A DNA stretch of 64,000 bases from Tepidiforma bonchosmolovskayae. Lineage in GTDB: Bacteria > Chloroflexota > Dehalococcoidia > Tepidiformales > Tepidiformaceae. Positions 15,737 through 19,583 of the stretch are shown piece by piece. A program made the translations under genes and the position numbers. Numbering within the stretch: position 1 is the stretch's first letter; each line of letters opens with the position of its first letter. The stretch is from assembly GCF_008838325.1 (NCBI RefSeq), contig NZ_CP042829.1, positions 1,612,001-1,676,000 of the forward strand, in the 5' to 3' direction. The notes beneath the pieces are model-generated. The model was given only the letters and a program-made list of their open reading frames with translations. It was not told where the DNA came from and did no database searches.

Positions 15737-17224
15737 TCAAACCACCGGCGCGAAGGCCCGCCCTTCGAACCCACCCGGGGGCGCCAGCCCGAGCAGTGCG
15801 TACGACGTCGGGGCGAAGTCGCGGGCGTCGACCTCGCCCGCGGGCTGCAGCGGCACCCCGGCCGCCGGGCGGATGAAGCAGAACCCCCGCCCGGTGTGGA
15901 TGCCGTTCCGCCGCTCCTGCATCGGGTTCACGATGCGTCGGCCTGCCGGGTCTGTTGCTTCCAGCACACGGGCAAGCTCCCGGTTGCTGACGAGCAGCCC
16001 GTCGGGAAGGTAATCCGCCCGCGGTCCCGGGAACCGTTCGGCAATCCGCAGCAGCCCGCTGAAGACCGGCAGGCCCTCCGGGCTCCGGAACGGCAGCGCG
16101 GCCTCCTCCAGCCGTGTCAGCCATGCATCTGCGTCCTCCCGGTTCACGACCCCTGCCGCCTCGCGGCCGGCGATGCTGACCCGGGCTGCGAAGTCGGCGT
16201 CGTGGCTGACCGGAAAGACAGGGTCGGCGCCCGGGTGCGCGCCGCGGCCGTCGAGTGCGCCCTGCCGTGCCGCCCGTATGCCTGGCGGCAGCCGCTCCCA
16301 GACGAACCGGTGGACCGGGTCGGGCACCAGGTCGCGCACACGCCGGAGCAGGTCCGGCCTCGCCAACGCCGAAGCCAGGTCACGCCCCAGCGCAATCGCC
16401 AGCACCTGTCGCCCCAGCACGCTGTAGTCGACCTGGTGCTGCATGCCGTGCAGCGCGAAAAGCGCCACGGTCGTCCCCTCCCCCGCGGCGGCCAGCACGC
16501 GCGGCCATGCTTCGTCCAGCGGCTGCAAGACCTCCGCGATGAGGTCGAGGTTGGTTTTTCCCGCGACGACCTCCCGTTCCTCCGCGAGGTAGTGCCCCGC
16601 TTTGTGCGTTTCGCCGAACAGGACCACCACCAGGTCACACTGCCGATCCCCCGCCAGCTGCTCCAGCAGCCGGGCCCGCATCGCGACACCCTTCGAAAGT
16701 TTCTCGGCCATCCTGAGCAGGTCGCGCGGCGAGTGCGGCTCCACCGTGTCGAGGGAGAGAGGATGCGCGCCCCAGGCACGTCGGAGCTGCGGCAGCGCGT
16801 CGTCCGGCCAGCTCTCCGGGGCGACCTCGTCGTGGGTACCCCAACCGGAGATCTGCTGGACAAGCGGGTGCCGGGCCAGCGGCGCATACGGGACGTCAAC
16901 CACTGCGACCCGTTTCCCCGCCTCCGCCAGTCCCTGCCAGAATGGCTGATAGTCAAACGCCGGATGGGAGCTCCGGACGAATCGCATCTCCTCCGGCAGC
17001 CACTGCAGCCACCAGTACCGCCCGTGGTGCCCCGGCCCCATGGCCGACGCAAAGGTGGGCCAGATCGAGCCGTGAAGAGTGTCTCCGTCTGAGCGGACCG
17101 GCAGTTCGTGGGCTCCCGAGCAAAACGCCGCCAGGTTCGGCAGGCGGCCCTCCGCGATGAGGCGCCTGAGCCACGCGACCTCCATCGCGTCCAATGCGAC
17201 GAGCAGCAGCCTTCGCCTCGACAC
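15737..17224 (-). CDS. Alkaline-phosphatase-superfamily phosphodiesterase
   Basis: A 495-residue type I phosphodiesterase/nucleotide pyrophosphatase-like protein. The N-terminal 'LLLVALDAMEVAWLRRLIAEGRLPNL' supplies the first metal Asp. 'SIWPTFASAMGPGHHGRYWW' carries the nucleophile Thr region. 'FGETHKAGHYL' and 'ALHGMQHQVDY' correspond to the second metal-ligand set, and 'GIHTGRGFCF' to the last His. There is no signal peptide. The GTG at 17224 has AAGGAG 5 nt upstream. It heads the minus-strand glycan-type operon. The substrate (phospholipid head group, nucleotide sugar or other) cannot be told from sequence. Confidence 0.85.
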   Translation of the reverse strand: MSRRRLLLVALDAMEVAWLRRLIAEGRLPNLAAFCSGAHELPVRSDGDTLHGSIWPTFASAMGPGHHGRYWWLQWLPEEMRFVRSSHPAFDYQPFWQGLAEAGKRVAVVDVPYAPLARHPLVQQISGWGTHDEVAPESWPDDALPQLRRAWGAHPLSLDTVEPHSPRDLLRMAEKLSKGVAMRARLLEQLAGDRQCDLVVVLFGETHKAGHYLAEEREVVAGKTNLDLIAEVLQPLDEAWPRVLAAAGEGTTVALFALHGMQHQVDYSVLGRQVLAIALGRDLASALARPDLLRRVRDLVPDPVHRFVWERLPPGIRAARQGALDGRGAHPGADPVFPVSHDADFAARVSIAGREAAGVVNREDADAWLTRLEEAALPFRSPEGLPVFSGLLRIAERFPGPRADYLPDGLLVSNRELARVLEATDPAGRRIVNPMQERRNGIHTGRGFCFIRPAAGVPLQPAGEVDARDFAPTSYALLGLAPPGGFEGRAFAPVV

Positions 17225-17263: not shown

Positions 17264-18472
17264 CTACACCGCCAGCGGGTTCTCCGCGATCGCCACCAGG
17301 TGCGGGCTCACCTGCGGCAGCCGGTCAATCCCCACCTCGTCGAGCACGCCGATGTAGTCGTGCAGCTGCTTCTCCCGCAGCTTCCCCAGCCGCTCGATCC
17401 CCGCCTGGATTCGCTCCATGTCCCCCGCAAAGAGCAGCGCCAGCGCCTCCCGCTCCGCATGGCTGTACCGCAGCTCGATGCTCAGCGCCGCCTCGGCCCG
17501 GCCCAGCCAGAACCGCACGTTCTCCCGCCCGCGCGGGTGGTGCTGGACGTACCACAGCAGATGCCGCTTGCCGTACTCCAGGTGCCGCCGCGAATCCCGC
17601 GCCAGCAGCGAGAACAGCTTCCGCTCCACCTCTGTCTTCGCGAAGTCGCCGTACGCCTCGAACAGCGTCAGCTCGTACGACTTGTAGACCACATCCACCG
17701 CCGTAATCATCTCAGTGAACTTCAGCGCCCCGTACCACGCCCGGTAGAGCGCCCCCAGCGGCGCCTGCCCGAGCCCGCCGCCGTTCGCCAGCGCCCGCTT
17801 CCGGAGCGCCTCCACCTTGTGCCCGGCGTCGTAAATCTGCGTCCCGAGGAACAGCTTCACATCGTGGAAGCCGTAGCTGATCGGCTCCAGCCACTTCGCG
17901 AGGATCTTCTGCTCCACCAGCCCGTGCCCGCTGTAGAGCGTGGCCAGCTGGCACACCGCCTTCTCGATCTCGGCCGGCAGCTCCGCCAGCCCTTCGTTCC
18001 AGTCCAGCTCCGTCGCCGGCGCCCACCGGTCGCGGATCGCGTCCTCGTACAGCTCGTCGACGCCCTCCGCCCAGACCTCGACCTTGTCGTAGATGTAGTA
18101 GCTCCCGGGCGCGTAGTTGTCCGGCGATGGGTGCGCGCCCCGCGGCGTGTCGTTCTCGTACGGCCAGTGGTCCGGCACCTGCCCGTACGTCCCGATATTG
18201 ATGTCCTTCAGCAGCAGCCCGCGCTCGCTCGGCTTCGCCCGCACGCCGCGCTCCGAACGGGTCCGGATGAGGTTGAACGTCAGGTTCGGCACCCGCTCCG
18301 GGTCCCGATCGACCAGGTCGAGGAACCCGCGCACCCGCTCCTCGGGAATGCGCATCATGGCGATGTTCGCCACCGTCACGTCCTTCAGCGGGGACGCCTC
18401 GATGCGGGCGATCGTCTCTTCGCTCCAGCCCAGTTCGCGGGCGCGGGTCTTCGTCGCGGTGCTCAGCTGCAT
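17264..18472 (-). CDS. R2-like ferritin-fold protein that has lost most diiron ligands
   Basis: A 402-residue homologue of the next upstream gene (18528). The shared core includes 'KLFLGTQI-x5-x-RKRAL-NGGG', 'FTEM', 'LTLF' and 'R-x-HLEYG' elements. Ungapped alignment with the neighbour shows that R2-type ligands are replaced: helix C Glu by Ala216 and His by Lys219, helix E Glu by Lys264, helix F Glu by Ser294. His297 remains, and Glu187 may replace the helix B Glu. It therefore probably cannot hold a normal diiron site and may act as a structural partner, as yeast Rnr4 does for Rnr2. The N-terminal 100 residues are unique to it. GGAAGG precedes the ATG at 18472. Confidence 0.85.
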   Translation of the reverse strand: MQLSTATKTRARELGWSEETIARIEASPLKDVTVANIAMMRIPEERVRGFLDLVDRDPERVPNLTFNLIRTRSERGVRAKPSERGLLLKDINIGTYGQVPDHWPYENDTPRGAHPSPDNYAPGSYYIYDKVEVWAEGVDELYEDAIRDRWAPATELDWNEGLAELPAEIEKAVCQLATLYSGHGLVEQKILAKWLEPISYGFHDVKLFLGTQIYDAGHKVEALRKRALANGGGLGQAPLGALYRAWYGALKFTEMITAVDVVYKSYELTLFEAYGDFAKTEVERKLFSLLARDSRRHLEYGKRHLLWYVQHHPRGRENVRFWLGRAEAALSIELRYSHAEREALALLFAGDMERIQAGIERLGKLREKQLHDYIGVLDEVGIDRLPQVSPHLVAIAENPLAV

Positions 18473-18527
18473 CGTTCCATCCTTCCGGGAGCTGCGTGGT
18501 TCAGCGGTGCGGTCCGGGAGCCGCCCG

Positions 18528-19583
18528 TCAGTTGACCGGGTCGAGGAATTCGCGCAGGCCCGGCGCCATCCGTTCGCGCCGGTCGCCCAACCCAATCACT
18601 TCGAGCCGGTGCATGTACTCGTTCACCTGCCGCTTCCGCATCAGCAGGAGCTTGGCGAACCCCTCGTCGATGTGTTCGATGCCCCCGCCGGCAAGGATCG
18701 CCAGCGCTTCGCCGGTCGTCGGGTTCGTCGTCAGGCTCGCCTGCTGGCTCTGCGCCAGGGCCCCCTCCTGGATGTCCAGGTAGTGGTGCATCTCTTCCTT
18801 CCGCCACGGTTCGGTGTCCATCACGTACTTCATGTGCGTGACCCCGAACGCCAGGTGGCGGCTCTCGTCCTGCGCCGCAAGCCGGAAAATCTTCTTCTCC
18901 GCCTCGTTCTGCGCAATCAGCTCGCCCATCCGGAACAGCGTCTGGACGAACCCCTCGCCCACCAGGTGCAGCAGGGCCGTCATCTCGGTGAAGTCATCCA
19001 CCGAGAGCAGGTTGATCGCGCCGAACCCGGCATCCACCATCCCGCCGCCGTTCACCAGCGCACGCTTCCGGAACACATCGAGGTGCCGGCTCTCATCCAT
19101 AATCTGCGTGCCCAGGAACAGCTGCGACTCGAAGTGGTCCGGGTGCACCTGCTCCATGAACCGCCCCGGCAGGTCGCCCGCGATGAACTCCACCTGCGTC
19201 AGGAACGTGCACAGCGTGCACATCGCCCATTCGAGGTCATCCGGCAGCGGCTGAATCGTCTCCCACGGGATATCCACTGCGCTCGACCACTGCCGCTGGT
19301 TCGCCTCTTCGTAGAGCAGCATCGCGCTTTCCGACCAGACGTCCGCCTTCGAACGGTACTGGCGCGCGTGCCGCGGCGACCGCGGGTCGGCGACGGCGCC
19401 CCGCGGCTTGAAGACCGGCGCCCCCGCTTCGTCGAGGTCGACGACCCCGTACCGCGTGAGCGTGTTGATCTGCTCGAGCGTGAGCCCCCGGCGGCTCGCC
19501 TGGAGCCGCGCGCCGGTCTCGGTGTCGAGGTTCAGCCAGTCGAAGTTCAGCCCGGGAACGTCCACAAATGCAGGCGACGTCAT
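18528..19583 (-). CDS. R2-like diiron/ferritin-fold oxidase, complete ligand set
   Basis: A 351-residue ferritin-like protein of ribonucleotide-reductase-R2 type. Expected metal ligands are all visible: Glu132 (helix B), Glu164 and His167 ('DESRH', helix C), Glu210 (helix E), Glu240 and His243 (second 'DESRH', helix F). The position of the R2 radical tyrosine, four residues after the helix C His, is Phe171, as in class Ic R2. No NrdA is nearby. A non-canonical R2, R2-like ligand-binding oxidase or N-oxygenase-type role is therefore possible. It is the first gene of a pair with the ligand-poor homologue. Start ATG 19583, GGAGG 8 nt upstream. Confidence 0.87.
   Translation of the reverse strand: MTSPAFVDVPGLNFDWLNLDTETGARLQASRRGLTLEQINTLTRYGVVDLDEAGAPVFKPRGAVADPRSPRHARQYRSKADVWSESAMLLYEEANQRQWSSAVDIPWETIQPLPDDLEWAMCTLCTFLTQVEFIAGDLPGRFMEQVHPDHFESQLFLGTQIMDESRHLDVFRKRALVNGGGMVDAGFGAINLLSVDDFTEMTALLHLVGEGFVQTLFRMGELIAQNEAEKKIFRLAAQDESRHLAFGVTHMKYVMDTEPWRKEEMHHYLDIQEGALAQSQQASLTTNPTTGEALAILAGGGIEHIDEGFAKLLLMRKRQVNEYMHRLEVIGLGDRRERMAPGLREFLDPVN

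Follow-up and report, generated by a model that had tools for sequence, protein, structure and literature searches.

The window analysed here, 64,000 nucleotides of Tepidiforma bonchosmolovskayae DNA, carries two adjacent minus-strand genes whose products resemble each other and the small subunit (R2) of ribonucleotide reductase, raising the question of what enzyme the pair encodes and what the second gene contributes to it. An initial annotation described one complete and one ligand-stripped diiron protein and proposed that they form a heteromeric R2-like oxidase. The first gene, designated A (18528..19583, minus strand), encodes 351 amino acids, and the second, designated B (17264..18472, minus strand), encodes 402; both frames are intact. 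The 55 bases separating the A stop from the B start (18473..18527, minus strand) are consistent with a single transcript. A co-directional gene for a type I phosphodiesterase-like protein begins 39 bases past B (15737..17224, minus strand) but is probably not a core component, as it adjoins the pair within the genus Tepidiforma only. The A and B proteins align over 339 residues with 33% identity (E = 2e-51; 34% in a MAFFT alignment), and the motifs LFLGTQI, RKRAL-NGGG, and FTEM, by which the two genes had originally been recognized as related, are present in both.

The metal site distinguishes the two proteins. A possesses all six ligands, namely Glu132 (19188-19190), Glu164 (19092-19094), His167 (19083-19085), Glu210 (18954-18956), Glu240 (18864-18866), and His243 (18855-18857), and Phe171 (19071-19073) occupies the position of the R2 radical tyrosine (all codons on the minus strand), exactly as first listed. 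The corresponding residues of B are Gly184, Ala216, Lys219, Lys264, Ser294, and His297, of which His297 (His243 in A) is the one ligand of six that is kept, and Leu223 aligns with Phe171. Ala216, Lys219, Lys264, and Ser294 had been read correctly from the sequence; the replacement of Glu132 by Gly184 and the retention of His297 are additions to that list. His206 of A, four residues ahead of Glu210 (window 18954-18968, A residues 206-210), is invariant in A-type proteins, mixed in solo relatives, and unconserved in B; it is possibly an extra ligand or a proton donor.

The division into a complete and a stripped subunit extends across the homologues. In a joint alignment, the full E-E-H-E-E-H set is found in 65/65 A-type homologues and in seven solo relatives, whereas 61/61 B-type homologues keep two ligands at most; A-type genes that stand alone encode a full metal site in every case. 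Residues that are invariant in A without being ligands (L90, Y91, W99, W107, E118, D163, R172-K173-R174, N178, G179, D239, and R242) occur in 93-100% of B proteins. Since these scaffold and second-sphere residues are kept, the loss is confined to the metal site, and it is not a matter of chance. No alternative conserved set of Glu, Asp, or His residues is visible in the B family, at shifted positions or elsewhere, and the acidic residues that never vary in B (E170, D215, D293, and E327) align to positions in A that are acidic and not ligands. Some B proteins may bind metal in a lineage-specific manner.

The loss of most ligands, together with evolution about 1.6 times faster than that of A, could be taken to mean that B is a decaying pseudogene. 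There is next to no chance of this, as pairwise dN/dS values for B are 0.15-0.28 (0.05-0.08 for A), and for a second pair in the same genome they are 0.18 for B and 0.01 for A. The B frames are intact over about 50 rows of the tree, the protein has invariant residues, and its predicted fold is a confident one. Pseudogene status was rejected on the pattern of selection: B is a maintained protein under purifying selection.

The predicted structures indicate the family to which the proteins belong. The A model has a pLDDT of 71 overall and about 85 over the core (good for residues 84-350, below 50 for residues 1-83), and the B model has a pLDDT of 88. Structural alignment (VIA-align) matches A to VlmB and protein 60 (Z 23), cADO (Z 22), R2lox (Z 21), and the MMOH alpha subunit (Z 20). 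B matches VlmB (Z 22.3, 255 residues), cADO, MMOH alpha, and MMOH beta (Z 20.7, 304 residues, rmsd 4.3). A has the four-helix core with E, ExxH, E, and ExxH that characterizes the ferritin-like (R2-type) diiron superfamily, and B has the fold without the ligands. On these models both proteins belong to this superfamily, and the Z values do not pick a reaction. B additionally has a predicted N-terminal domain of four short helices (approximately residues 1-60; 18293..18472, minus strand; pLDDT >90) that has no counterpart in A and no Pfam match; a similar-looking extension is seen in two solo genes (L122/L123).

The R2 fold, the presence of Phe171 at the radical-tyrosine position, and the precedent of yeast Rnr2/Rnr4 would be compatible with A being a ribonucleotide reductase small subunit, perhaps of the class Ic type (Phe for the radical Tyr), and B being an Rnr4-like helper. 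However, the only reductase large-subunit gene in this genome, which is a single contig of 2.75 Mb, encodes the class II B12-dependent NrdJ (TIGR02504, 1.9e-214), an enzyme that needs no R2, and no class I large subunit (NrdA/NrdE) was found in the genome. Genome-wide, no Pfam R2 match was obtained at E <= 0.1, and the score of A against Ribonuc_red_sm (E 0.012, 15.5 bits) is far below the cut-off of 33.6. With class II NrdJ as the only large subunit and no R2 match in Pfam, an R2 role for A was rejected; this explanation is largely refuted and very improbable. The genes were thus rightly called R2-like with no NrdA beside them, in the sense that their fold matches are of the R2 type and they are not part of a ribonucleotide reductase.

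Comparison with the R2, R2lox, AurF, and monooxygenase families, proposed in the initial annotation, gave profile matches of A to solved structures of R2lox (3e-5) and of a VlmB homologue (2.6e-4), and no family cut-off was reached. The best score against the NCBIfam R2lox models is 34.3 bits (cut-off 194). The A helix 198-218 contains no tyrosine, and therefore the Val-Tyr cross-link of R2lox cannot form; Ala135 is invariant at +3 from Glu132. Membership in R2lox was rejected for the lack of the cross-link tyrosine and the low NCBIfam score. Neither A nor B matches the Phenol_Hydrox or PaaA_PaaC Pfam families at E <= 1, or the AurF family; three solo relatives (L125, L135, and L136) score 16.7-19.9 bits against AurF (cut-off 29.6). 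These Pfam results leave room for remote kinship with the PaaA/PaaC, MMO, and AurF families. At the gene level, the pair has the arrangement of a bacterial multicomponent monooxygenase, with a ligand-bearing alpha and a ligand-free paralogous beta encoded together. Neither a reductase nor a coupling protein was seen in the Pfam scan of the genes around the pair or among the genes conserved around its relatives, in keeping with the earlier statement that no reductase lies beside it.

The pair is conserved among related genomes. Both gene types are present in 35/38 genomes of the order, and a second pair, A2/B2, is found in the same genome about 0.5 Mb away with its order unchanged (L033:9361-11698, which is G000:C1:2154360-2156697). 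B2 has its own pattern of loss, with A, L, H, D, R, and M at the six ligand positions. Among 400 genomes drawn from the Chloroflexota, A-type matches occur in 19, of which 16 are strong. Only one remote ferritin-like match, with 23.5% identity, was found on plasmids. In nearly all loci A and B are adjacent in a constant order, which is kept across several families. Variants on this arrangement include one Chloroflexi genome with the order A-A-B-C (L024:6477-11174), in which two complete A genes precede one B; C is a small linked gene considered below. In another genome, the A gene of the second pair is spread across three reading frames, through decay or sequencing error, and its B has an open frame (L127:6620-9175, G022).

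In the tree, pair-type B proteins form one clade (50 rows, support 100/100) and A proteins another (47 rows, support 96/95), with the solo complete relatives outside both; an extra B-like sequence (L138) sits on a long branch outside the two clades, its placement unsure. By these sequences, B arose through a single ancient duplication of A and has been co-inherited with A since. The A and B subtrees mirror one another, and the A/B distances correlate with r = 0.92 over 36 pairs, a value reached by 0/5000 permutations, shared species history inflating such a correlation. A check of row names for this correlation matched 95/105 rows, the remainder most likely having been missed through trimmed alignment columns. 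The possibility, raised at the outset, that only one of the two genes might ever be present in homologues is not borne out, as every surveyed genome with a B also has an A. Complete A-type genes can stand without an adjoining B (L122-L125 and L134). Only B is therefore the dependent member. The proposal of a heteromeric R2-like oxidase thus stands as to the complete and stripped pair, the R2-like fold, and the co-inheritance of B with A, with the correction that complete A-type genes are also found alone.

The solo genes bear on a further explanation, that A is homodimeric and B is a separate homodimer with a different function (as a regulator, in metal loading, or in folding), co-inherited with A yet outside the catalytic complex. 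R2 and R2lox are as a rule homodimers, B carries its extra N-terminal helical domain, and in three genomes (G306, G320, and G380) one B lies beside C and apart from any A, all of which would suit such an arrangement. Against it, the scaffold residues of A are near 100% in B, the distances of the two proteins correlate as described, and the order and adjacency of the pair are preserved across several families. A separate role for B is thus unlikely, and a heteromeric body made of A and B is the reading pursued here. In the three genomes concerned the A genes are elsewhere in each genome; B and C are adjacent without a neighbouring A at L147:7396-9815 (G306) and likewise side by side on one contig in the other two.

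There is no conserved neighbourhood around the pair, with the exception of C. The phosphodiesterase, Gfo/Idh oxidoreductase, and glycosyltransferase genes past B are retained within Tepidiforma only. C encodes an SCP2-like protein of about 145 amino acids and, like the second pair, lies outside the window, elsewhere in the genome; it is a component newly recognized here. The window's genome has a single unlinked copy (G000:C1:1471556-1471978, minus strand; L186:9545-9976) and two A-B pairs. C is present in 34/38 genomes of the order, mostly unlinked and then in weakly conserved context, but in about ten divergent loci it lies directly downstream of the pair or of a solo A. It follows B in L024, L126, L138, L139, L143, L144, L147, and L153 and a solo A in L122-L125. 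The occurrence of A-type genes alone with C suggests that in some lineages A may do without B; one genome (G341) has a solo A and an unlinked C. In three distant lineages, a small Zn-ribbon gene is located between B and C (L126:6170-6487, L139:4267-4659, and L153:6059-6361; Pfam Zn_ribbon_8 in L139). Among the 400 Chloroflexota genomes, a strong C match (E 7e-39 or better) is found in exactly the 16 genomes with a strong A and in 0/384 others; the 16 come from 7 families and are phylogenetically non-independent, and no probability is attached to the co-occurrence.

C matches no Pfam or NCBIfam family, SCP2 included. Its profile retrieves short proteins (L204-L207) at about 1e-7 to 1e-6 per genome that do belong to Pfam SCP2 (1e-14 to 7e-10), and the two that were tested match the solved SCP2 structures 2cx7 and 1wfr. 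Direct matches of C to 2cx7 and 1wfr are weak (E 0.4). By these sequence matches, C is SCP2-like over its first 90 or so residues, with a divergent C-terminal half. Other genes accompany the solo loci. L122-L124 have the order PAS-LuxR regulator, solo A, C, and 2x[4Fe-4S] ferredoxin; this ferredoxin gene adjoins C in solo loci only and none was seen beside A-B pairs. An aldehyde dehydrogenase gene follows at L125, and the distant solos L135, L136, and L140 adjoin acyl-CoA dehydrogenase genes. The simplest guess from these neighbours is that a hydrophobic or acyl-type substrate is oxidized with electrons from a ferredoxin. In Tepidiforma, the operon lacks C, and neither a reductase nor a ferredoxin gene was found next to the pair.

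A and B therefore probably form a heteromeric O2-dependent non-heme diiron oxygenase in which A is catalytic, B is a metal-less structural or regulatory partner, C is likely a substrate or product carrier, and a ferredoxin is the electron donor. B would have been retained in this partner role after the duplication of A and the loss of its metal ligands. In the proposed cycle, C would load a hydrophobic substrate and the A/B body would bind either C or the released substrate. A ferredoxin, whose gene would be unlinked in Tepidiforma and adjacent in some relatives, would reduce the diiron site of A. O2 would then be activated at A, the sole diiron site, and the substrate oxidized. By analogy with PaaC and MMOH beta, B would give structure and perhaps a docking surface. 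The most likely task of C is to bind hydrophobic substrate or product and deliver this compound to the A/B body. Instead of hydroxylating or epoxidizing its substrate, an enzyme of the same heteromeric architecture might desaturate it, deformylate an aldehyde, or act as an N-oxygenase. The top fold matches of A are to VlmB (an azoxy synthase), protein 60 (with aldehyde-deformylating activity), and cADO, and the aldehyde and acyl-CoA dehydrogenase genes near solo loci point the same way; however, VlmB, cADO, R2lox, and MMOH lie within 1-3 Z units of one another, too close to separate these reactions, and the neighbours vary by lineage. Such other chemistry is somewhat unlikely, and oxygenation is the favoured reaction for the A/B body.

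The three-part system of A, B, and C is real and conserved; its two large members conform to the known architecture of an active and a metal-less diiron subunit and lie outside every named family tested. More tentatively, and at somewhat short of an even chance, they may represent an undescribed class of oxygenase in aerobic Chloroflexota, in which a ferredoxin supplies a heteromeric diiron body, an SCP2-type protein is its dedicated lipid carrier, and the hydrophobic substrate comes from the membrane or resembles CoA or a quinone. No paper naming the A-B pair was found in the open-licence literature searched. The pair joins the multicomponent monooxygenases and PaaA/PaaC as an example of a diiron enzyme retaining a metal-less duplicate as a partner, and because complete solo relatives survive, the step from a single gene to a pair is open to direct examination. 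Operons and co-occurrence now tie C, a protein family previously without a name or a link, to A and B. Members of the genus Tepidiforma are in culture and are strict aerobes (PMC10284905), so that the question is accessible to experiment.

Several known systems resemble the pair in part. R2lox proteins are the closest solved relatives of A by profile and match its fold strongly, but they have the Val-Tyr cross-link and are homodimers, whereas here a degenerate paralogue is co-inherited. VlmB/protein 60 and cADO come closest to A and B in fold (Z 22-23) at an identity of only about 12-18%; they are single-subunit enzymes and are not known to have a paralogous partner or an SCP2-like protein. 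Yeast Rnr2/Rnr4 is a heterodimer of an active and a ligand-degenerate R2, unlike A/B in that A/B is not a ribonucleotide reductase. MMOH and the phenol/toluene monooxygenases likewise combine an alpha subunit bearing E-E-H-E-E-H with a metal-less beta subunit on the same scaffold, an arrangement known here from the genes, but there is no Phenol_Hydrox match and no gamma subunit, MmoB-type coupling protein, or flavin reductase beside the pair. Of the precedents originally suggested, the alpha/beta arrangement of these monooxygenases fits; PaaA/PaaC of 1,2-phenylacetyl-CoA epoxidase, which is not among them, is a closer precedent than Rnr2/Rnr4 (PMC4498308). PaaA/PaaC is a dimer of heterodimers in which a catalytic ferritin-like diiron subunit is joined by a structural one that shares its fold, PaaA being insoluble without PaaC (PMC4498308), and both systems have a further small component (PaaB there, C here). 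They differ in that PaaA and PaaC are 17% identical (34% for A and B), no PaaA_PaaC Pfam match is obtained, a PaaE-type reductase is not beside the pair, and C is SCP2-like rather than PaaB-like. For C, which reaches no Pfam SCP2 score, the functional analogy is with UbiJ/UbiT of ubiquinone biosynthesis, in which an SCP2-domain carrier serves hydroxylases acting on a lipid (PMC6747719).
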